A stretch of DNA of 31,877 nucleotides, from positions 1-31,877 of the IMG/VR virus record IMGVR_UViG_3300037504_000385; one strand, 5' to 3'. Below the pieces are notes generated by a model that did not search any database, was not told the origin of the DNA, and saw only the letters and a list, made by a program, of their open reading frames with translations. The position numbers and the translations under genes were made by a program. Each line of letters starts with the position of its first letter. Position 1 is the stretch's first letter. Positions 7,200 to 31,809 of this stretch are shown here, one piece after another. The stretch comes from a virus.

Positions 7200-8084
7200 A
7201 TGATTGTTAATGCGGTGTGTCGGAATTTTGGGGATGACCGGGTGATACCTAGGTTTGCGCGGTATCTGCGGGATTTTCTGGGCTGGCGGCTGACTAAGCG
7301 GCCGGTGGATCCGGGCCAGGTGGATGCGTATTATTTGAGCGGGTATTTTGAGGCTCAGTTTATGCGGCCGTGGCCGGAGGGGCGGCCGGTGGGGGCGTAT
7401 TTCACCCACCGGGAGGAGGAGCCGCCGGGGAATGCGAAGGCCAAGCTGTATGATAATGTGGCGGGCCGGGTGGATCTGCGGATTGCGACGGCGGCGATGT
7501 ATGCGGGGCCGCTGGTGGAGTATGGGGCGACGGCGCAGATTACGCCTCCCGTTGAACGTGGACGATTTGTGATTCCGAAGGGCCCTTCAACGGGCTCAGG
7601 GCGACTGGCGGTGGGGTTCAGCGGGTACACGTACCGGAATGGGCGGAAGGGGGAGGCGCTGGCCAGGGCGCTGGTGGGATCGAATCTGGCCAGGAAGGTG
7701 GACTGGCGGGCGTCGGGGAGGGGGTGGCCAGTGCCGACGCGGAAGTACCGGTGGGAGGAGATGCCGGGATTCTACCAGAGCCTGGACGTGCTGGTAGTGA
7801 CGAGTTCGGTGGAGGGGGTGCCGATGCCGCCGCTGGAGTGTTTGAGCTGCGGGGTTAGTGTGGTGATCCCGCGGGGCGTGGGGCTGCTGGACGAGCTGCC
7901 AGAAGAGCCTGGAATATACCGGTACGAGAAAAATCAGGCTAAATCGTGCCTTTCTGCGCTCAGGAAGGCTCTGGGAGAGCGCAGGGACGTAAATCGGGAG
8001 AAATTGAGGGAAACGACGGCGCCGTACACGATTACGGCGTGGTGTGAGCAGCACAGGCAGGCTTTTGCGGAGGTGATGTTGTGA
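7200..8084 (+). CDS. GT4-like glycosyltransferase
   Basis: 294 residues. The C-terminal half is typical of GT-B retaining glycosyltransferases: FSGYTYRNGRKG, then MPGFYQSLDVLVVTSSVEGVPMPPLECLSCGVSVVIP, which contains the E-x7-E donor-binding motif (EGVPMPPLE). The N-terminal acceptor domain is short and divergent. It should transfer a sugar from a nucleotide-sugar to an unknown acceptor. It is the first gene of a block inserted between capsid and connector genes. A dispersed hairpin repeat is read in-frame as GPSTGSGR near residue 130. No clear Shine-Dalgarno precedes the ATG; instead there is a repeat hairpin. It overlaps the next gene by GTGA. Confidence 0.8.
   Translation: MIVNAVCRNFGDDRVIPRFARYLRDFLGWRLTKRPVDPGQVDAYYLSGYFEAQFMRPWPEGRPVGAYFTHREEEPPGNAKAKLYDNVAGRVDLRIATAAMYAGPLVEYGATAQITPPVERGRFVIPKGPSTGSGRLAVGFSGYTYRNGRKGEALARALVGSNLARKVDWRASGRGWPVPTRKYRWEEMPGFYQSLDVLVVTSSVEGVPMPPLECLSCGVSVVIPRGVGLLDELPEEPGIYRYEKNQAKSCLSALRKALGERRDVNREKLRETTAPYTITAWCEQHRQAFAEVML
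7582..7602. repeat. Dispersed hairpin repeat inside a coding sequence
   Basis: GCCCTTCAACGGGCTCAGGG at 7582-7601 is a diverged copy of the TCCTTCG...CTCAGGA element and can pair GCCCT with AGGGC. It is read through in the glycosyltransferase frame as PSTGSG. It lies between the two domains, where an insertion could be tolerated. Confidence 0.6.
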
Positions 8085-8824
8085 GTCGTGGTATTTTTTG
8101 TGTGGCGTTCGGGGACCCGGCCAGGGCGTGCGCGCAACGGATGATGGAGACGGCGAAGCAGCACATGCCGGAGATTCCTATCGCGTTGTGTGGCGCGAAA
8201 AAGATCGGGATCGAGGACGTGTTCGTGAAGCAGCCGGACAGTGACATCGGCGGGCGGCGGGCCAAGTTGAAGGCTTACGAGCTGAGCCCGCAGGAATGGA
8301 CATCCGTCCTCTACCTGGATGCGGATACTGAGGTGTGCGGGGATATCCGATTCTACTTTGAGCTGATCGAGGACGGCTGGGAATTTGTAATCTGCAAAGA
8401 CCCGCATTTGATGGATACGATGCACGCCTTCCGGCGCCAGAACAACCTGGCGGAGTTGTACGAGACGGAGAGCCAGATCGTGACGCTGCACACGTTGCAG
8501 TACAACGGGGGGGTGTGGGCGTTTGGCAGGAACAAGCGGGTGGCGGCGTTTTTCGAGCGGTGGTTGATGGAGTGGGAGAAGCACGCGCAACGGGACCAAG
8601 GGGCGCTGATCCGCGCGATGTACACCGATCCGCTGAAGGTGTACGTCCTGGGCAACGAGTGGAACACGTTCGAGAAGTATACGCGGGGGATCGAGACGGC
8701 CGGGTTGATGCACTATCCGGGGCGGGCGCGGCGATGGAAGGGGATGATCCCGGGGCGGATCGATTCAGACACGGCGTGGAAGTTTGTGGAGCGTTTCGAG
8801 GCGGAGCATCGTGGCCGACGCTAA
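8081..8824 (+). CDS. GT-A glycosyltransferase (GT8-like)
   Basis: 247 residues from GTG at 8081, overlapping the preceding TGA. SVLYLDADTEV (DAD at 80-82) is the metal-binding DxD motif of GT-A enzymes. RRAKLKAYELSP before it and LQYNGGVWAFGRN, RDQGALIRAM and GLMHYPGRARRWKG after it match the architecture of GT8-like nucleotide-diphospho-sugar transferases. The substrate cannot be told. It shares a 14-base overlap with the methyltransferase downstream. Within this block it is likely part of a multi-step glycan assembly acting on a virion protein or host surface glycan. Confidence 0.75.
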   Translation: MSRGIFCVAFGDPARACAQRMMETAKQHMPEIPIALCGAKKIGIEDVFVKQPDSDIGGRRAKLKAYELSPQEWTSVLYLDADTEVCGDIRFYFELIEDGWEFVICKDPHLMDTMHAFRRQNNLAELYETESQIVTLHTLQYNGGVWAFGRNKRVAAFFERWLMEWEKHAQRDQGALIRAMYTDPLKVYVLGNEWNTFEKYTRGIETAGLMHYPGRARRWKGMIPGRIDSDTAWKFVERFEAEHRGRR

Positions 8825-9269
8825 GCTGAATTTGGGCTGTGGCGGGGACGCCCGCGAAGGATTCGTGAATCACGATTTGCGGAAGCATTCGCCGCGCGTA
8901 GACGTGGCTTGGGATTTGAACGATCTGCCCTGGCCGTGGGAGGATGAGAGTTTCGATCTGATCGTGGCTAAGGCGGTATTTGAGCATTTACGGCTGAATT
9001 TGTTGGAATCGGTGGGAGAGTGCTGGCGGGTGTTGCGGCCGGGCGGCAAATTGTGGATGAAGTTGCCGCATTGGGAGCACAATAATTCGTACCTGGATCC
9101 GACGCATTACTGGCAGTTTGCGCTGCACACACCGGACATTTTCGACCCGGAGACCCGATACGGGAAGCGGTACAATTTTTATACTGAGCGCAAATGGAAG
9201 ATCGTGAAGGGCCCCAAACTGAACCGGGCCAAGAGCTCGATCATCGTGGTAATGGAGGTACGCAAGTGA
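8811..9269 (+). CDS. SAM-dependent class I methyltransferase
   Basis: 152 residues from GTG at 8811, nested in the end of the preceding gene. LNLGCGG (residues 6-12) is motif I for S-adenosylmethionine binding. WDLNDLPWPWEDESFDLIVAKAVFEHL holds motifs II-III and CWRVLRPGGKLWMKLPHWEH the post-motif strand. This is the Methyltransf_11 pattern common in sugar and natural-product O-methylation. Given three flanking glycosyltransferases, methylation of a glycan is more likely than DNA methylation; there is no DPPY-type DNA methylase motif. It overlaps the next gene by GTGA. Confidence 0.85.
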   Translation: MADAKLNLGCGGDAREGFVNHDLRKHSPRVDVAWDLNDLPWPWEDESFDLIVAKAVFEHLRLNLLESVGECWRVLRPGGKLWMKLPHWEHNNSYLDPTHYWQFALHTPDIFDPETRYGKRYNFYTERKWKIVKGPKLNRAKSSIIVVMEVRK

Positions 9270-9955
9270 CGGATCTGGTCGTCACGACGTGCAACCGGCT
9301 GCCGCTGTTGAAGCGGACGCTCCAACACATTTGGGAGCGGACTGGTAGCCCGTACCGATTGCACTTGCTGGACGATGCATCGGACGCGCCAACGGTCGAA
9401 TATTTGCGGCGGCTGAAACACGAGGGCCGAATCGACTCGGTTTATTTTGGCAAGCGGCCGGTGGGGATCCCTGGCCAGTTGGCGCGGATCGTGCGGGTCA
9501 CGAACACTGATCCGGTGGTGTTTACGGACGACGACGTGTTGTGTCCGAAGCTGACGCCGGATTGGCTGGCGCGGGGACTGGCGGCAATGGCGCGGCACCC
9601 GCAGGTGGGCCTGCTGGCGTTGAACGGCCCGCAGTGCAATATTGACGGCAAGCGGGGGGAGATCGTGCCGCGCGGGGAGATCACGTTGTGCAGGAATATT
9701 CCCGGCTGGTTCGCGTTCGCGCGGCGGAAGGTGCTGGAAACGTGCTTGCCGGATGATGGGGTTTACTCGCCGGTGAAACAGATGTGCAAGCGGGCGAAAG
9801 AGGCCGGCTGGGAGGTGGCGTATCTGACTGAGGTGTATTGCCAGCACATTGGGGCGCGGTCGGTGCGGAACCGGAAAGATTTGCAGCCGGAGCTGGACAT
9901 GGTGCTGCCGGTCGACCCGGACACTTTGGTGCCTCCGAAGGAGTTCCGGTTTTGA
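9266..9955 (+). CDS. GT2-family glycosyltransferase
   Basis: 229 residues. GTG at 9266 has GGAGG at 9254-9258 with 7-base spacing and overlaps the methyltransferase stop. VVTTCNRLPLLKRTL opens a classic GT2 nucleotide-binding fold; LLDDASD follows and FTDDDVLCP (DDD 88-90) is the metal site. PGWFAFARRKVLE and CKRAKEAGWEVAYLTEV fit the acceptor-side region. It likely adds a sugar to a growing glycan. Translation of the next gene is coupled by a TGATG junction. Confidence 0.85.
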   Translation: MTDLVVTTCNRLPLLKRTLQHIWERTGSPYRLHLLDDASDAPTVEYLRRLKHEGRIDSVYFGKRPVGIPGQLARIVRVTNTDPVVFTDDDVLCPKLTPDWLARGLAAMARHPQVGLLALNGPQCNIDGKRGEIVPRGEITLCRNIPGWFAFARRKVLETCLPDDGVYSPVKQMCKRAKEAGWEVAYLTEVYCQHIGARSVRNRKDLQPELDMVLPVDPDTLVPPKEFRF

Positions 9956-10485
9956 TGGCGAAAGCCAAAGTGTTTGGGATCGGGCTGTCGAAAACGGGCA
10001 CGTCGTCATTGACGGCGGCGCTGAAGCGGTTGGGGTACAAGGCGAAACATTATCCTCATTTGTTCCAGGTGATCGAGACGGCCAAAAAGTGCGACGCCGT
10101 GACGGATACGCCCGTGATCGTGTATTTCGAGGCGTTAGACCGGCTATGGCCCACGGCGAAATTTATCTTGACGGTGCGGGACGAGGATGAATGGATCGAT
10201 TCGTGCCGACGGCATTACGCCAAGAAACCGGTGAGCAAGATCATGGCCTGGAAGCTGCGGAATCGGCGGGCGGTGTACGGGATGAACGGATTCGACGCGG
10301 CGCATTTCTGCCAGGTGGCCAGGACCCACCGGAAGCGGGTGGAGGCGCATTTTGCGGATCGGCCGGGGAAGCTGCTGGTGCTGGATATTTGCGCAGGCGA
10401 GGGGTACGAGCGGCTGTGTCCGTTTTTGGGATTGCCGGTGGTGAAAGAAAAGTTTCCGCATAAAAACATTGGGAGGACGTCGTGA
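9955..10485 (+). CDS. Sulfotransferase-like protein
   Basis: 176 residues. GIGLSKTGTSSL (residues 8-19) resembles the 5'-phosphosulfate loop of PAPS sulfotransferases. AKFILTVRDEDEWIDS (68-83) resembles the 3'-phosphate site (R75, S83), and the end FPHKNIG is also typical of the Sulfotransfer_4-like group. It would move a sulfate from PAPS to a glycan or protein. It is shorter than many family members but both cofactor sites are visible. ATG at 9955 shares a base with the upstream TGA. Its presence after the sugar genes suggests a sulfated surface glycan, which is inference. Confidence 0.75.
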   Translation: MAKAKVFGIGLSKTGTSSLTAALKRLGYKAKHYPHLFQVIETAKKCDAVTDTPVIVYFEALDRLWPTAKFILTVRDEDEWIDSCRRHYAKKPVSKIMAWKLRNRRAVYGMNGFDAAHFCQVARTHRKRVEAHFADRPGKLLVLDICAGEGYERLCPFLGLPVVKEKFPHKNIGRTS

Positions 10486-25419: not shown

Positions 25420-26805
25420 TTACCAGTCTTCGGATTCGAGGATCTGGCGGATCTGTTCGAGCCGGTATCCGGCGCGGTAGCCGAATATGGCTTCTGAGAT
25501 GGCGCTGTTGCTTTCGCCAGCGGCCCAGAGGTCGCGGATTTGCTCGATCTGGGCCTGGGTCAGGGTGGTGTCGGGTTCAGGCTCGGGAGCGGGCGGGTCG
25601 GGCAGGTCGTGGGCCGGGCCGCCATTAGACAATGCAGCTTCGAGTTGCTGGCGGCTGACGTAGGGGCCCTGCAGCTCTTGGAGCTCCTGGCCAGTGAGCT
25701 GCGCGACCATCCTCCCCTTCTGTTTGAGTTCGTTGGCGCTTTTGTCGTCCAGGACGACTCGGCTGGACGTGGGGGAGGTGCGGAAGCAGAGGCGGCTCGA
25801 AAAGTTGTCCCGGACCTGGGTGGGGATGACGCGGTGGTTGGCGGATTGGCCGGCGACCACGACGTAGACGCCGTATTGGCGGGCGGTCTGGACGGCGACG
25901 CGCAACGGGTCGCCCACCCCGGATTCGTTCATGAGCGCGGTTCCCTCGTCTACCACTACGAGCAGGGGGGGCAGGCCGGCGCCGGTGGCGCGGTTGTAGT
26001 CGACGATGTTGGCGGCGGTGGGGGCGTTGTTTTCGTAGGCTTGCTTGCGGCTGGTGATCTCGGTGCTGACGGCCTGGAGCATTGCGACGGCTTGGGGCAG
26101 TTCGCGGGCGATGGGCCAGCGGAGTTTGCCCCAATGGCGGAGGACGTTGAACTCGCTGCCATAGCAGTCGATGAGGGCGACCTCGACGGGTTCCTGAGCC
26201 AGGGCGATCTGGTAGAGGAGGGCGCGGAGCCAGACGGATTTGCCCCAGCCGGAGGCGCCGATGACGAGGCTGTGCATGAGGTCGTGGATAGATAGCGTCG
26301 CCAGGTCGAGGCCGTCAGTGGTGGGGCGGGCGCCGATGATGAGGTCATCGATGGTGGCGCGGCGGTCGCGTAGGACGTCGGCCAGGTTGACGGCGCTGGG
26401 CCAGGGCTGGCCGGGGTCGTCCAGGGCGTCCTGGATGGGCTCGGGGAGGGCCCGGGCGCGGCCGTCGCCGCCGGCCTGCATTGCAAGCAGGGTTTTTTGG
26501 ATGGTGTTGAGCCGTTCCAGGACGGGATCAAAGTAGAGGTTGATCTCCTGGGTGAAGGCGGCACGCGAATCCAGGTCGCGGTAGACGCGGCCGTCGTAGG
26601 CGATGCCGCCGCGGCCGTTGCGGTCGGGCTGTAGGATGCGGATGGATTCCAGGCGCTGGCGCTGTTCCTCGGCGCGCCAGACCTGGGCGCGGTGTTTGGC
26701 TTGCCAGTAGCGTTCTTGGGCGCGGTCGTATATGTTTTGGATCAGGTAGGTGCTGGCCCAGGTTAGGGCACCGGCACCGGCTGCGGTTAGGATTAGTTCT
26801 AGCAT
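25420..26805 (-). CDS. Membrane-anchored FtsK/SpoIIIE (TraB-like) DNA translocase
   Basis: 461 residues. One N-terminal membrane helix (about 4-24) is followed by a charged helical region. Walker A is GASGWGKS at 183-190 and Walker B LLVVVDE at 281-287. VVVAGQSANHRVIPTQVRDNFSSRLCFRT matches the FtsK/HerA motor core. Residues 415-458 (TQAQIEQIRDLWAAGESNSAISEAIFG...LEQIRQIL) look like a helix-turn-helix, comparable in position to DNA-reading domains of FtsK and of actinobacterial TraB. It should pump double-stranded DNA at the membrane. In a phage, roles in segregation, dimer handling or plasmid transfer are possible. GAGGGGGTG precedes the ATG. Confidence 0.85.
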   Translation of the reverse strand: MLELILTAAGAGALTWASTYLIQNIYDRAQERYWQAKHRAQVWRAEEQRQRLESIRILQPDRNGRGGIAYDGRVYRDLDSRAAFTQEINLYFDPVLERLNTIQKTLLAMQAGGDGRARALPEPIQDALDDPGQPWPSAVNLADVLRDRRATIDDLIIGARPTTDGLDLATLSIHDLMHSLVIGASGWGKSVWLRALLYQIALAQEPVEVALIDCYGSEFNVLRHWGKLRWPIARELPQAVAMLQAVSTEITSRKQAYENNAPTAANIVDYNRATGAGLPPLLVVVDEGTALMNESGVGDPLRVAVQTARQYGVYVVVAGQSANHRVIPTQVRDNFSSRLCFRTSPTSSRVVLDDKSANELKQKGRMVAQLTGQELQELQGPYVSRQQLEAALSNGGPAHDLPDPPAPEPEPDTTLTQAQIEQIRDLWAAGESNSAISEAIFGYRAGYRLEQIRQILESEDW

Positions 26806-27021: not shown

Positions 27022-27228
27022 TTATGTCTCTACGCGCAGAAACGGATATAGCTGTCCGTATTGATCTTCTGAAATCAGGTATCCGCTGTTCTCCAGCGTG
27101 GCCAGTCGCCCGGCGACGTCTCTAGGATCCAGGCCGACTGATTGTGCCAGCATTCTGATCGTCGCGCCGGGGTTGTCCTCCAGAGTGTTCCATATTTTTT
27201 CTACCATCTCACGATTTATCTGAGACAT
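27022..27228 (-). CDS. Winged-helix DNA-binding protein
   Basis: 68 residues from ATG 27228, with GGAGAGG nine bases upstream; TTG at 27246 is less likely. EMVEKIWNTLEDNPGATIRMLAQSVGLDPRDVAGRLATLENSGYLISE is a complete winged helix-turn-helix. It is small and lacks an effector domain, so a repressor or activator of the leftward genes is likely. Its leader (27242-27362) can fold into a four-helix junction whose closing stem overlaps the ribosome binding site. Confidence 0.75.
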   Translation of the reverse strand: MSQINREMVEKIWNTLEDNPGATIRMLAQSVGLDPRDVAGRLATLENSGYLISEDQYGQLYPFLRVET

Positions 27229-27241
27229 TGTATTTAGCCTC

Positions 27242-27362
27242 TCCAAGCGTGGATCTGGCGATCCACTTTGAGCATGTTCTGTAGAGGCCGGCGCGGGAGC
27301 GCCGAACGCGCCGGCCTGCGATAGAACAGCCAGATGTTGAATTTTACAACTTTTTGCTTGGA
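27242..27362 (-). ncRNA. Candidate structured leader RNA, four-helix junction
   Basis: Closing stem TCCAAGC (27242-27248)/GCTTGGA (27356-27362). Inside are hairpin GTGGATC-TGGC-GATCCAC (27249-27266); a long arm TGTTCT/AGAACA enclosing GGCCGGCGCG/CGCGCCGGCC (27275-27328); and a small GTTG/CAAC hairpin (27336-27350). All listed pairs are perfect. On the minus-strand transcript the closing stem includes the GGA of the GGAGAGG ribosome binding site for the winged-helix gene, so folding could block translation. I know no RNA class with this layout. Confidence 0.45.
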
Positions 27363-27871: not shown

Positions 27872-28248
27872 TGTGTTTCCTCTACTTCGAGCCACCAGTC
27901 GTTGGGGTTGTCCATTTCCACCTTGAAGGTGATGCGGCCCTGATCGTACAGGTCGGCGGCCCAGCGGAGAAGGGCGTGGGCGACGCGGGACGGGTTGTTT
28001 TGGCGTAGCTCCAGGACGGCGATGCGTTTTAGGTTTTCGATGGTTTCCTCGTCGAGGTCGTAGGTGGCCTTGACGCGATTTTCCTCGGATGGGTAGCGGG
28101 GCCGTTTGCGGCTGCCGTTGGCTGTGGGTTGGGCCTGGGGCCCGGGCTGTCCCTTGCGCAGGACCTCGGGGAGCTCGACGAGGGGCTCGGATTGCTCGTC
28201 GGCGCCGGCCCAGGTGTCGGCGATGGAGCGGCGGTTTTTAGTGGCCAT
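27868..28248 (-). CDS. Ribbon-helix-helix protein, likely ParA partner
   Basis: 126 residues. A disordered basic N-terminus (to about residue 70) is followed by RVKATYDLDEETIENLKRIAVLELRQNNPSRVAHALLRWAADLY, which fits a beta-strand and two helices of the ribbon-helix-helix fold. Centromere-binding proteins of type Ib partition systems have this layout and use the flexible N-terminus to stimulate ParA. It overlaps the end of parA by 11 bases with GGAGG inside parA. Likely binds the 9-mer array downstream and may autoregulate. Confidence 0.7.
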   Translation of the reverse strand: MATKNRRSIADTWAGADEQSEPLVELPEVLRKGQPGPQAQPTANGSRKRPRYPSEENRVKATYDLDEETIENLKRIAVLELRQNNPSRVAHALLRWAADLYDQGRITFKVEMDNPNDWWLEVEETQ

Positions 28249-28996
28249 TGGTTACCTCCAATACTCGGAAAACTAGGTTGGCGTATTCTTCTGCGGCGCG
28301 GGATCCGGGTGCGTATTCGAAAATTGATTGTGAGTGGGCGGGGCATTCGCGCAGTACGACGGCCTGGTGAATGGGGTCGAGGATCAGGTCGCCGTAGATC
28401 TGGCGCAGGTCCTGGAGCATGGTTTTGGATTCGTTGGTTCTTTCATCCAGGAACGTGGGCAGGATGCCCAGGACGCGGCCGGTCCAGCCGGTGCGGTCGA
28501 TGCGGTCGAGGGTGGTGGTGACGGCGGTGATGCCTTCGGCCGACATGATGTCGGTGGAGGCGGGGATCAGGACCAGATCGGCGGCGAAGAGGGCCATCTC
28601 TTGGAGGCCACCGACGCTAGGGGCGGTGTCGATGATCAGGAAATCGGGGCTGCCGTTGGGTAGGTTGCGGTCGATGATGCTTTTTAGGACGCGGATTTCG
28701 CCGTGGTGTTCGGTGGCCAGTACGAGCTGGGCGGTGCCGGTGCGCTTGTTGCCGGGGACCAGGTAGAGATTAGGCCGGCCGGTGGTGCGCAGGCAATCGC
28801 GCAGGGCGCGGCCGGTGAGCAGGTCGAATACGGCGGACTCTTGGCGAAGGCCCAGGGCGGTGGCGCATTGGCCCTGGGGATCGAGGTCGACGATCATGAC
28901 TTCGTGTCCGCGCAGGGATAGGCCGTGGGCCAGGGATACGACGGTGGTGGTTTTTGCTACGCCACCCTTTTGATTAGATACTGTTATTACTTGCAT
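28238..28996 (-). CDS. parA: ParA-type partition ATPase
   Basis: 252 residues from ATG 28996, preceded by GGAGG. NQKGGVAKTTT (residues 8-18) is the deviant Walker A with both lysines; VDLDPQGQ (36-43) is Walker A', and FLIIDTAPSVG is Walker B. There is no N-terminal helix-turn-helix, so it is the small type Ib form, which usually pairs with a ribbon-helix-helix protein as here. It would segregate low-copy DNA by nucleoid-bound ATP cycling. Its presence on a phage argues for an episomal prophage. Confidence 0.9.
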   Translation of the reverse strand: MQVITVSNQKGGVAKTTTVVSLAHGLSLRGHEVMIVDLDPQGQCATALGLRQESAVFDLLTGRALRDCLRTTGRPNLYLVPGNKRTGTAQLVLATEHHGEIRVLKSIIDRNLPNGSPDFLIIDTAPSVGGLQEMALFAADLVLIPASTDIMSAEGITAVTTTLDRIDRTGWTGRVLGILPTFLDERTNESKTMLQDLRQIYGDLILDPIHQAVVLRECPAHSQSIFEYAPGSRAAEEYANLVFRVLEVTNGH

Positions 28997-29007
28997 TTGT
29001 TTCCTCC

Positions 29008-29040
29008 AGGTGTATAATGTTCTAGAACCTCTTGCAGGGT
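29008..29040 (-). promoter_or_regulatory. Candidate parA promoter/operator
   Basis: GTTCTAGAAC (29019-29028) is a perfect 10-base palindrome 23-32 bases upstream of the parA ATG. It directly adjoins a TATAC-like sequence on the minus strand (plus TGTATAATG). Partition operons are commonly autorepressed, so this is a reasonable operator; the -35 is not clear. Confidence 0.4.
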
Positions 29041-29051
29041 TCCTTCCAGGT

Positions 29052-29083
29052 CGGGCGCGCCGTAAACCCACACGACGCGCCCG
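29052..29083 (-). terminator. GC-rich hairpin between the upstream gene and parA
   Basis: CGGGCGCG (29052-29059) pairs with CGCGCCCG (29076-29083). It lies just after the stop of the 29088 gene in transcript order. A T-run is present only on the plus-strand side, so leftward termination is doubtful; attenuation is possible. Confidence 0.3.
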
Positions 29084-29087
29084 GTTT

Positions 29088-29363
29088 TTATGTCAGGCTT
29101 TTTTTTGGGATGGGTTTGCCGTCGCCGGCCGGGTTGTAGGGCCAGCCCAGCGCCAGGAATCCTTCGGATGTTATCCAGATCGGCTGGTCGATCAGGCCGG
29201 TGTATTTTATGCCGAGGACGTAGTTGGTTTCGGCGGCACCCAGTCCGATGGCCTGGCAGACGTCGATCAGGAGCGCGGTTTGCTCGAATGTCATGCCTTT
29301 CTGTTCTTCGTCGAGCTCTTTGCGCAGGTCTCTGAGATTGCAGATCACGTTTACGAGGTTCAT
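29088..29363 (-). CDS. Small hypothetical protein
   Basis: 91 residues: MNLVNVICNLRDLRKELDEEQKGMTFEQTALLIDVCQAIGLGAAETNYVLG, then WITSEGFLALGWPYNPAGDGKPIPKK. A helical first half and a short aromatic end. Not recognised. Coupled by ATGA to the upstream 146-residue gene. Lies upstream of the partition operon on the same strand. Confidence 0.6.
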   Translation of the reverse strand: MNLVNVICNLRDLRKELDEEQKGMTFEQTALLIDVCQAIGLGAAETNYVLGIKYTGLIDQPIWITSEGFLALGWPYNPAGDGKPIPKKSLT

Positions 29364-29800
29364 TGGGTTTCCTCCAGTTCTACTCTAGGCCAGTCGTCGA
29401 TGAACATTGCTATTCTATCGAGGTCCCAGCGGCGTTTGTTTAGCCATTTTTCTAGCCGGTTGGCTACGTCGTCCAGGTGCTCCCAGCGGCGGCGGTTGTC
29501 GGCGAGGCGGCGGGCTTCGGCCTGGCGGGCGGGGTCGACGCCGACGTATTTTTTGCGCTTGCCGTCGGGGCCTTCGTAGCCGCGGCCGTCGCGGCAGGCG
29601 CGGAAGTACATGTAGAGGTAGCGCGGCTCGGAGTCGTTGCGAGATTGCCAGCTCTCGGTTGGAATGCCGTCGTACATGCCGGCGGCTTCGATGTTGGCCA
29701 TCTCGGCCCGGATGGCGGCCAGGTGGCGGGCGGCGGCGCGCATTTCACGTTGGATCTGGGCGTGCAGTTCGGTTAGTTCTGATACGTCAGTTGTTTTCAT
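29360..29800 (-). CDS. Hypothetical helical protein
   Basis: 146 residues. Starts with a long helix (ELTELHAQIQREMRAAARHLAAIRAEMANIEAAG), has a compact aromatic centre (EPRYLYMYFRACRDGRGYEGPDGKRKKYVGVDP) and ends in another helix (NRRRWEHLDDVANRLEKWLNKRRWDLDRI). The centre looks like a nucleic-acid-contact loop but no family is recognised. GGAGGAAC precedes the ATG; a SRTAMSG-encoding hairpin lies 13 bases upstream. Confidence 0.6.
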   Translation of the reverse strand: MKTTDVSELTELHAQIQREMRAAARHLAAIRAEMANIEAAGMYDGIPTESWQSRNDSEPRYLYMYFRACRDGRGYEGPDGKRKKYVGVDPARQAEARRLADNRRRWEHLDDVANRLEKWLNKRRWDLDRIAMFIDDWPRVELEETQ

Positions 29801-30122
29801 CGGGTTCCTCCGGGCCGGACATGGCTGTCCGGCTTACGTCTAACGGCTCGGCTTCGGGCCAGACGTGGCGGCGGTAGCGGGTGAGCTCTTCGATCAGGAA
29901 GCCGAGGGTGTCGGGGCTCTTGAATCTGAGGAGCAGGGGCGGGACGTCGCCGTCGTCGGGGAAGATGGTGAAGATGAGGTGGACCTGCTCGGGGGGGAGC
30001 TGGGCCCGGGTGTCGGGGCACCAGGCGGCTATTTTGACGTCGGGTTGGCCGACTTCGATGAAGAAGCCGTCCAGGGGTTCGGGTTGGTTGCTGCGGGTGG
30101 TTTTGCCTCTTGCTTTGGTCAT
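29787..30122 (-). CDS. Hypothetical protein with basic N-terminus
   Basis: 111 residues from ATG 30122, with AGGAGA upstream; longer in-frame starts have no ribosome binding site. MTKARGKTTRSNQPEP is basic; PEQVHLIFTIFPDDGDVPPLLLRFKSPDTLGFLIEELTRYRRHVWP is an alternating beta-alpha segment. The final residues (SRTAMSG) come from the repeat hairpin. Function unknown. Overlaps the next gene by 14 bases. Confidence 0.55.
   Translation of the reverse strand: MTKARGKTTRSNQPEPLDGFFIEVGQPDVKIAAWCPDTRAQLPPEQVHLIFTIFPDDGDVPPLLLRFKSPDTLGFLIEELTRYRRHVWPEAEPLDVSRTAMSGPEEPDENN
29814..29833. repeat. GCCGGACA-TGGC-TGTCCGGC hairpin, copy 1
   Basis: Perfect 8-bp stem with loop TGGC. It lies in the 3' end of one gene and 13 bases before the ATG (29800) of the next on the minus strand. 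Confidence 0.85.
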
Positions 30123-30292
30123 TTTGTTTTCTCCTGGCCGGACATGGCTGTCCGGCTTACGTTGTTTTGCCAGGACTGCTCCAGGGCTATTTTGGAGGTC
30201 CAGCAGAGGTCGAGCAGGATCATGCTTTCGCAGAGTTTGCAAAGCAGGCTGCCGGATTGGCGGTTTGGCGAGTTGCAGATTAGGCAGTTCAT
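30119..30292 (-). CDS. Small zinc-ribbon-like protein
   Basis: 57 residues from ATG 30292 with AAAGGAAC upstream. MNCLICNSPNRQSGSLLCKLCESM has two CxxC pairs forming a zinc ribbon. The tail ends SRTAMSGQ, encoded by the repeat hairpin. Coupled to the next gene by ATGA. Likely a small DNA- or protein-binding accessory; function unknown. Confidence 0.6.
   Translation of the reverse strand: MNCLICNSPNRQSGSLLCKLCESMILLDLCWTSKIALEQSWQNNVSRTAMSGQEKTK
30137..30156. repeat. GCCGGACA-TGGC-TGTCCGGC hairpin, copy 2
   Basis: Identical 20-base palindrome, 14 bases before the ATG at 30122 on the minus strand and inside the 3' end of the upstream zinc-ribbon gene. Confidence 0.85.
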
Positions 30293-30307
30293 TTTGTTCC
30301 TTTCTGG

Positions 30308-30327
30308 GCCGGACATGGCTGTCCGGC
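30308..30327. repeat. GCCGGACA-TGGC-TGTCCGGC hairpin, copy 3
   Basis: Identical palindrome (9 bp if one flanking pair is added), in the gap after the replication gene and 15 bases before the ATG at 30292. Confidence 0.85.
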
Positions 30328-30336
30328 CTACGTTTG

Positions 30337-31215
30337 TTACCATTGGATGTAATCGCTGTATTTTCCTTCGATGTATCTATGGCGGTCGTTGGTGGGGTTG
30401 GGTTGGTCGTCGGGATCGGGTGGTGAGTCGCCGGATAGCATGCAGTGGAACTGGAAGCGGGTGGTTTGCTTGTTGGGGCTGTCGTAGGGTTCGATGCCGG
30501 CCTGGCGGGCGGCGGTGTGAGCGCGGACGTAGTCGGCGGTGATCCAGGGTAGGGAGATGAGTTCGGGCCAGCGGTTGCGCCAGGCGCCGGACTCGGTCAG
30601 GGCCGCCTCCAGATCTGGGTCGATGGGCTGTTCTTCTGAAACGTCTCGGGGAGACACTTCAGCTTGTGAAACGTCCGCATGAGACGTTTCAGCCTGTACT
30701 TTACTACTACTTTTATGTTCTTTTTTAATCTCTATACATGTAGTAGTAGTATAGGGGCTGAAACGTCTGCATGGAGACGTTTCAGCCCCTGAAACGTCCG
30801 CATGAGACGTTTCAGCCGCCCCAACGCTTTTGGCCTGTGGATAACCCTGTGGATAACCCTGTGGATAACCCTGTGGATAACTTTCCGATCCGGTGCGGGC
30901 TTGGATTTGCGGCCGGCCGGCCTCGAGCTGCGGACGCGGGCCGGCTAGCAGGCCATCGAAGCCGGGCAGGTGGAGCTGCCCGGAGGGCAGACACCAGCGC
31001 CGGTAGTGCGGGCGTTCGACGTAACCGGCGTCGAGCAGTTGGTTTAGTGCGTCGCGTATGGTGTTGTGGCTGTATTTTAGTTCGTCTGCCAGGAACGATT
31101 GGGTGACCGGCTTCTTTACGCGGAGCATGGCTAGCATAATGATCAATGGGGCGGGGTCGTTTCTTAATTGACGGATGTCGTCGAGGGCCGGATCGGGCCG
31201 TGATGGGCGGGTCAT
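30337..31215 (-). CDS. Winged-helix replication initiator-like protein carrying the origin
   Basis: 292 residues from ATG 31215, with AGGAGG and 7-base spacing; TTG at 31218 is less likely. Residues about 15-75 (PLIIMLAMLRVKKPVTQSFLADELKYSHNTIRDALNQLLDAGYVERP) form a winged helix. Residues about 100-195 are low-complexity, including GYPQ repeats and repeated ETSHADVS, because the DNA there is origin-like. The C-terminal third (WPELISLPWITADYVRAHTAARQAGIEPYD...FQFHCML) resembles C-terminal parts of phage replication proteins. By analogy with lambda O, it likely binds the palindromes in its own gene and recruits a helicase; the helicase is not in this window. Confidence 0.65.
   Translation of the reverse strand: MTRPSRPDPALDDIRQLRNDPAPLIIMLAMLRVKKPVTQSFLADELKYSHNTIRDALNQLLDAGYVERPHYRRWCLPSGQLHLPGFDGLLAGPRPQLEAGRPQIQARTGSESYPQGYPQGYPQGYPQAKSVGAAETSHADVSGAETSPCRRFSPYTTTTCIEIKKEHKSSSKVQAETSHADVSQAEVSPRDVSEEQPIDPDLEAALTESGAWRNRWPELISLPWITADYVRAHTAARQAGIEPYDSPNKQTTRFQFHCMLSGDSPPDPDDQPNPTNDRHRYIEGKYSDYIQW
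30636..30880. other. Putative replication origin inside the initiator gene
   Basis: Four hyphenated palindromes CTGAAACGTC-N7/8-GACGTTTCAG lie at 30636-30662 and 30666-30692 (both degenerate in one arm), and at 30758-30785 and 30789-30815 (perfect arms). Each pair has a 3-base gap. Between the pairs is a 65-base AT-rich stretch (30693-30757) with its own 9-bp inverted repeat TACTACTAC/GTAGTAGTA. After 20 bases come four perfect DnaA boxes TGTGGATAA at 30836, 30848, 30860 and 30872, 12 bases apart. This is the full set expected of a theta origin. Confidence 0.75.
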
Positions 31216-31230
31216 CAAGGGGCCTCCTGT

Positions 31231-31809
31231 CTAGAATAAGCCTACGTCTTCTATGCGGTGTTGGTCTGTTTCGTCTTCGGGATTGACGAATTTGCCGCTT
31301 TCGTCTACCTGGTCGTTTAGTTGGTCCAGGCGTGTTTGCAGCTCGGTGAAGTCTCCGTCGGAGAAGTCCCAGCAGTCGCGGATTGAGCGGTTGGTGTCGA
31401 CGAGGCGATTGGCGATATGACGGGCGGTGGGCAGGCGATGCCAGTCGCCGGCGTTGCCATAGATGGGCCGGATGCCGCCGGGGATGTAGGCTCCGCGCGG
31501 TATGATGAGGATGAGGGAATCGTCGGGTCCCCAGTAGGCGATCCTTGCTCGTTGGGTGCCGTCGTCGATGGGTGCTGGCATGTCTTCACGCTCGAAAGCG
31601 TTGTTGATTTGTTCGTTGACCTGGGAGATGACGCTTTCCCAGGCGGCGGTCTGGGCGCTGGCGAGGTCGTCGGGCCCGGGATCGTCACTGTCGACGATGA
31701 CGGGCTGGCTGCGTTCGATCTGGATATTGCCGTGGTTGCCGTCGGATATAACTCGTTTGAATGATATGTGTCCGTAGGTGGTGGGGGAAGATGTGTGTCC
31801 GTTGCTCAT
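31231..31809 (-). CDS. Hypothetical acidic protein
   Basis: 192 residues, AAGGAG before the ATG at 31809. It reads SFKRVISDGNHGNIQIERSQPV early, then AAWESVISQVNEQINNAFE, SLILIIPRGAYIPGG and a C-terminal acidic helix LQTRLDQLNDQVDESGKF. Not recognised. Fifteen bases separate it from the initiator gene, so they are probably co-transcribed. A partner in replication or recombination (for instance a single-strand-binding or annealing accessory) is conceivable but not supported by motifs. Confidence 0.55.
   Translation of the reverse strand: MSNGHTSSPTTYGHISFKRVISDGNHGNIQIERSQPVIVDSDDPGPDDLASAQTAAWESVISQVNEQINNAFEREDMPAPIDDGTQRARIAYWGPDDSLILIIPRGAYIPGGIRPIYGNAGDWHRLPTARHIANRLVDTNRSIRDCWDFSDGDFTELQTRLDQLNDQVDESGKFVNPEDETDQHRIEDVGLF

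Follow-up and report, generated by a model that had tools for sequence, protein, structure and literature searches.

Origins of replication that are located inside genes are known from few models, lambda O and pSK41. The origin of lambda and of its Stx/lambdoid variants lies in the middle of gene O, each of its iterons is an inverted repeat, and an AT-rich tract adjoins the iterons (PMC7466680). The rep gene of pSK41 carries four sites in its central part which are bound by the winged helix-turn-helix (wHTH) N-terminus of the protein; the linker is dispensable, and the C-terminus is DnaD-like and tied to primosome function (PMC5703833). For the RepA_N type represented by pSK41 the criterion is a C-terminus that binds DnaG. 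The origins of P1 (oriR) and RK2 (oriV) are located outside the rep gene and are served by initiators of the Rep_3 or a similar type. Such iteron origins of plasmids and phage-plasmids comprise iterons, an AT-rich unwinding region and accessory DnaA boxes, and published data do not indicate contact of DnaA with the single-stranded unwinding regions of plasmids (PMC10797057). For the RepA phage-plasmids among the mycobacteriophages, which are integrase-less, carry partition genes (parABS) and encode an HTH RepA, an origin inside repA has been suggested; repeats were not found in these phages (PMC7157519).

Here we describe a locus in the genome of a Chloroflexota phage, contained in a 31,877-bp stretch of viral DNA that was analysed as a whole and is called the window. 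Its positions 30636-30880 probably constitute a theta-type replication origin located in the linker-coding part of the gene for its own initiator; this gene is here called rep. The AT core in the linker with its AT-rich third codon positions, the sites lying beside it (nine of nine genes) and the spaced inverted repeats (eight of nine) together point to an origin inside the gene, of the kind known from lambda O and pSK41, yet by its sequence the predicted Rep protein belongs to neither of these protein families. Inverted-repeat iterons inside the initiator gene and beside an AT-rich tract, as in lambda, are found in the window and in eight homologues. The window differs from lambda in that its AT core is placed between two groups of sites and bears inverted arms of short repeats, and in that its copy contains DnaA boxes within the origin. 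As in pSK41, the linker would encode the origin and four palindromes in the central part of rep are candidate initiator sites, but in the window palindromic sites flank the core on either side and DnaA boxes are present, and its resemblance to DnaD lies in a terminal tail like that of the host class's own protein. With P1 oriR and RK2 oriV it shares iterons or sites, an AT-rich region and DnaA boxes; different from these origins, all elements lie inside the gene. Finally, in contrast to the RepA phage-plasmids, the in-gene architecture is visible in the window.

The Rep family of nine members, which is not apparent in the phage and plasmid collections, presents a putative origin that is legible from sequence alone. 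It holds its own internal controls, as the linker protein and the letters of the sites drift while the layout stays; it supplies candidate origins for phages of Chloroflexota, on which a literature search (Chloroflexi phages with replication origins) returned nothing relevant; and it is relevant to the suggestion, so far a guess, that the origin of RepA phage-plasmids is concealed within repA.

Anatomy of the locus

The presumed initiator gene is an open frame for 292 residues on the minus strand (30337-31215), which starts with an ATG and reads from 31215 to 30337, with an AGGAGG ribosome-binding site at 31223-31228, 7 nt upstream. The protein consists of a winged helix at the N-terminus, the origin-encoding linker and a helical C-terminal part. 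The winged-helix domain (about residues 10-85; 30961-31188, minus strand) is MarR_2/GntR-like, its match to Pfam MarR_2 (3.8e-5) lying under the curated cut-off. The Pfam profiles of the lambda O family (matches considered to E 0.1) and of RepA_N (PF06970) do not match Rep, nor is the DnaB_2 domain (PF07261) found in it by Pfam, the terminal tail alone resembling DnaD-like proteins. An AlphaFold model built with two sequences (pLDDT 38) was too poor for use. The earlier note had seen in the locus an independently built lambda O design; Rep indeed shows no relationship in sequence to the lambda O proteins, and independent construction is plausible. Lambda is an apt precedent for the in-gene position, but the closest precedent also includes the RepA_N plasmid pSK41.

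In the direction of the gene the wHTH is followed by the DnaA boxes, two palindromes, the AT core, two further palindromes and the C-terminal part. The four palindromes are of the TGAAACGTC-N7/8-GACGTTTCA type, two per side of the core. Repeat and pattern searches placed the outer site 1, one arm of which is degenerate, at 30636-30662, the inner site 2 at 30666-30692 and the outer site 4, which adjoins the DnaA boxes, at 30789-30815; the inner site 3 (30758-30785), identified by repeat search, has a spacer of N8 and is the best palindrome of the four, with 26 of its 28 positions self-complementary. The strict N7 pattern is matched perfectly by two copies and with two mismatches by a third, and 100 shuffles contained no match. 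The AT-rich core (30693-30757, 69% AT) falls within the 60-65 bp that reach the highest AT content anywhere in the window; GC at third codon positions (GC3) is 0.10 in the best 60 bp as compared to 0.67 in the remaining gene, and as a DNA hairpin the core folds better than shuffles (z -3.3). Repeat searches also revealed a trinucleotide shoulder at each end of the core, AGTAGTAGTATAG at 30742-30754 with CTA repeats in the gene direction and, inverted to it, CTTTACTACTACT at 30699-30711 with TAG repeats in the gene direction; these inverted arrays had been missed in the earlier note. The palindrome score of the gene (53, against a mean of 1.6) is above that of all 200 synonymous-codon shuffles and its TAG/CTA runs were reached by none of 500, which indicates that these features do not simply follow from the encoded protein. 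The four perfect DnaA boxes TTATCCACA (30836-30880, minus strand; pattern search) follow one another with a 12-bp period at 30836-44, 30848-56, 30860-68 and 30872-80, encode YPQGYPQGYPQGYPQ, and are the only perfect copies of this 9-mer in the 31,877 bp. Coordinates and shuffle tests thus bear out the earlier description of palindromes, AT-rich segment and four perfect DnaA boxes inside a winged-helix gene. Its suggestion that GC skew might mark the origin finds no such support, as the skew shows no turn close to the site, although the contig ends only 1 kb away.

Homologues and the layout they keep

Whole-protein searches with Rep in IMG/VR, in phage and plasmid collections and in a first genome scan found no protein relative, and searches with its N- and C-terminal parts, with ParA or with the neighbouring gene led to none either. 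By profile searches eight homologues, all diverged, were identified in Chloroflexota phages related to this one and in genomes of Anaerolineae; together with Rep of the window they make up the alignment of nine wHTH proteins called A6. Two diverged copies are located on the related phage contig MEWP01000028, whose portal protein is 63% identical (L144:6547-7353 and L146:5060-5697), and a single copy is found in a third phage, G015 (L151:18635-19360). MEWP01000028 is labelled Zixibacteria, which is doubtful, and its two homologues differ in their origin sites. Searching 396 genomes of the Anaerolineae class with the wHTH-domain profile added five clear new members (L159-L163), and the same profile found no member outside Anaerolineae in a 400-genome sample of the phylum. 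One of the five, L160, is akin to Rep of the window over almost its full length including the C-terminal part.

Several candidates were discarded: L129 is a chance match, L164-L188 are matches to ordinary regulators, and L001-L003 from IMG/VR match solely via their tandem DnaA boxes, which translate to YPQGYPQG, and were kept as evidence of the box array in unrelated viruses. An equal repeat spacing of 30/123 bp in the window and L160 joins non-equivalent sites and was dropped as evidence.

All nine members combine a match to the A6 profile with an AT core in the linker and palindromic sites. The most AT-rich 60 bp of each of the nine genes falls within the linker, and in the eight homologues (L144, L146, L151, L159-L163) GC3 is 0.00-0.40 in the AT core of the linker versus 0.55-0.84 elsewhere. 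Palindromic or iteron sites lie beside the core in every gene and are lineage-specific in sequence, namely TGAAACGTC in the window, GAAACCGGAA in L160, AGTCGGAAT in L144, GATCGGAAT in L162, GAGGTGCAAA in L151, GCACAA in L146, GCGAGGGATGA in L159, GGAGGGCGA in L161 and CGAAAGACG in L163. A spaced inverted repeat at the ends of the core, usually (TAG)n/(CTA)n, is present in eight of the nine genes; the short tandem repeats at this place are TAG/CTA in six genes, AAG in L146, TGAT in L162 and ATG-like in L163. In seven of the nine genes hardly any shuffle reaches the longest spaced inverted repeat, and in six the same holds for the TAG/CTA runs. By the longest-repeat measure L163 has none and L160 does not exceed shuffles; the compact-palindrome score alone does not exceed shuffles in L151 and L161, the sites of which appear instead as long spaced inverted repeats.

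The earlier note had called for homologues in which the architecture is kept while the linker protein drifts, and this is what the eight homologues show, although the sequence of the sites itself differs by lineage; the view that the origin would be encoded in the linker of a presumed initiator is strengthened by the layout they keep. A layout kept while the linker drifts is the pattern expected if selection acts on the DNA layout and the linker protein is carried along. Similarity of the recognition helices does not correlate significantly with similarity of the sites among the nine members (Mantel P 0.19; the palindrome sets used in this co-variation test, and likewise the shoulder motifs given above, were taken by eye from repeat outputs), and the pairing of Rep with the palindromes thus rests on position and precedent.

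Proposed function of the parts and alternative readings

How could such a locus work? We propose that dimers of the winged-helix Rep protein would bind the palindromes on either side of the AT core, that host DnaA might occupy the four tandem boxes either as accessory help or to tie firing to the host, and that the AT core would melt. For the inverted short repeats at the core ends we favour either hairpin formation or a role as single-strand binding repeats for initiators. The C-terminus of Rep, with its copy of the host DnaD tail, would recruit the host helicase-loading machinery. This copy is made up of the last 16 residues of Rep, DRHRYIEGKYSDYIQW (30340-30387, minus strand), which resemble the C-terminal end of the DnaD-like (DnaB_2) protein that Anaerolineae encode on the chromosome and match DRRRYIEGKYRDYIEH and similar tails in proteins of about 225-260 residues. 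Six of the tail-match proteins tested contain the DnaB_2 domain of DnaD-like primosome proteins. Of 48 genomes from a single order, 28 contain matches to the tail, and at least one such match (L220) belongs to a protein of the initiator type. In one genome the DnaD-like gene, on our reading, adjoins a DnaC/I-type ATPase and a replicative-helicase-like frame. The tail is missing from L160, the closest homologue by full length. The match suggests that Rep may imitate the contact which the host protein makes in helicase loading, and the tail is a concrete, testable candidate for a host contact.

DnaA boxes, which the earlier note had treated as part of the design, are present in the window copy only and missing from all eight other homologues, and the role of DnaA is therefore the weakest step of the proposal. 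Nevertheless, two unrelated families of initiators also have boxes inside the rep gene. Those of L014 and of its relative L209 lie within an HTH_36 initiator gene ahead of an AT-rich stretch; at this place the more distant L210-L212 have no boxes and carry the palindromic sites GGTTGAC and CACAACC..GGTTGTG. The HTH_36 family L209-L212 shows the same in-gene plan in wHTH genes unrelated to rep. In L220, a third HTH_36/DnaD_N-like gene, located in an Anaerolineae genome, a perfect DnaA box is followed by GGGGTGAA iterons and GAAGAAG repeats, which is the order of the window, and the C-terminus bears a DnaD-like tail. Since boxes recur in L014/L209 and in L220 but are absent in relatives, they appear to be a recurrent option and not the basic design. 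In L241 an AT core is enclosed by arms that are perfect inversions of each other, TGTTGTTGTTGA/TCAACAACAACA; the gene also has two palindromes, GGTGACGCCC..GTCACC, and ends with the same DnaD-like tail. It is possible, though we advance it tentatively, that mobile elements of Chloroflexota join different winged-helix heads to modular, self-contained initiator-origin genes of one symmetric plan (sites, arm, AT core, inverse arm, sites), sometimes with a host DnaD tail and with DnaA boxes as an optional plug-in. Were this so, the symmetric arms would represent a novel type of element for bidirectional melting or for helicase loading. A Chlorohelix plasmid encodes a further HTH_36/DnaD_N-like protein (L024:11465-12412) with two in-gene palindromes GGAAATATA(T/C)TTCCG and a tail motif, KYTTGKYAYL, that resembles the tail of Rep.

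The boxes might also act outside origin function, by titrating DnaA or regulating rep transcription, or be a chance GYPQ coding repeat. Their absence from the other homologues would fit this, as would four-box arrays of 12-bp period that are present on 19 further viral contigs and for the most part lie outside genes. We consider it rather unlikely, as the perfect 9-mer is kept in all four units, boxes adjoin in-gene sites again in L014/L209 and L220, and the arrays outside coding sequence show that the period is not imposed by a reading frame. Four-box arrays are also found in frames that do not look like initiators, including those for a 325-residue membrane-like and a 132-residue protein (L006:1553-1597, L007:4081-4125, L008:1688-1732). 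A BLAST search with the array against plasmids and phages gave no match, for which low-complexity filtering may be responsible. Close to dnaA itself, a perfect TTATCCACA box is present in three of six Anaerolineae genomes examined. An unlikely role for the TAG/CTA shoulders is that of a DnaA-trio (BUS), in which DnaA would load from the boxes onto 3'-GAT-5' repeats and melt the core. Repeated 3'-GAT-5' beside an AT-rich region is indeed a shared trait, at least three such repeats being found (TACTACTACTAC and AGTAGTAGTA), and the window arm that is closest to the boxes runs in the same polarity as the BUS of B. subtilis. However, spacing, motif and polarity are not kept: the gap from box to repeat is 81 bp, as compared to the 0-16 bp from DnaA box to first trio in the definition of the element (PMC8287927), the polarity is reversed in most homologues, all of which lack boxes, and in other genes the repeats are AAG, TGAT, ATG or TTG/CAA.

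Two further explanations set the origin aside altogether. The palindromes could be operators by which a MarR/GntR-like regulator controls its own operon through in-gene binding, and both the best Pfam matches, which are wHTH families of regulators, and the fit of palindromes to a dimeric regulator would agree with this. Yet the sites lie 400-580 bp inside the gene and away from the promoter, are in-gene in all homologues, and enclose an AT-rich core that bears inverted arrays of short repeats, joined in the window copy by DnaA boxes, and the C-terminal part has a DnaD tail and no ligand domain, which makes operators very improbable. That the repeats are the centromere (parS) of a ParA/ribbon-helix-helix system encoded 1.3-3 kb away is suggested by the genes for ParA and a small partner-like protein close by and by the repeat arrays of which partition sites consist. 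We give this hardly any credence, because centromeres require neither an AT-rich core nor DnaA boxes, the repeats remain in the wHTH gene in homologues with other neighbours, and their sequences vary between lineages and are not canonical parS. An origin within the initiator gene is the reading we retain.

The phage and its other genes

The 31.9-kb virus contig, which may be incomplete, carries terminase, portal, capsid and tail genes together with genes for an FtsK/SpoIIIE-like translocase (25420-26805, minus strand; PF01580, 2.9e-13) and, in the same operon direction, a ParA-type partition ATPase (28238-29071, minus strand; PF13614, 1.2e-33; phrog_164, 1.6e-50). By eye, the small protein encoded beside ParA is a putative ribbon-helix-helix partition partner. 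The genes of the window that were scanned did not include an integrase. The neighbours of rep (29088-30242 and 31231-31809) gave no useful family match where scanned, and no O/P pair was recognised. Relatives of the portal protein are encoded in Chloroflexota genomes (43-63% identity) and in many virus contigs (47-71%, one at 98%), and among the matches listed the best-scoring plasmid match of ParA is from Leptolinea. The window is probably a phage-plasmid of Chloroflexota, the ParA context suggesting an extrachromosomal, plasmid-like prophage.

Three identical intergenic palindromes GGCCGGACATGGCTGTCCGGC (29813-29833, 30136-30156 and 30307-30327; chance expectation 0) lie among the small genes downstream of rep and are possibly operators or terminator-like mobile repeats. 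GC skew is positive over 1-31877 though from about 24 kb onward the genes are on the minus strand and the AT skew flips; a constant positive skew would fit one direction of replication. Adjoining the FtsK gene, 27022-27246 encodes a wHTH protein of 74 residues that is weakly like Ren-like and regulator families. Between the capsid and connector genes, 7200-10485 contains glycosyltransferase-, methyltransferase- and sulfotransferase-like genes, and glycosyltransferase- and methyltransferase-like genes occupy the same place in two related phages.
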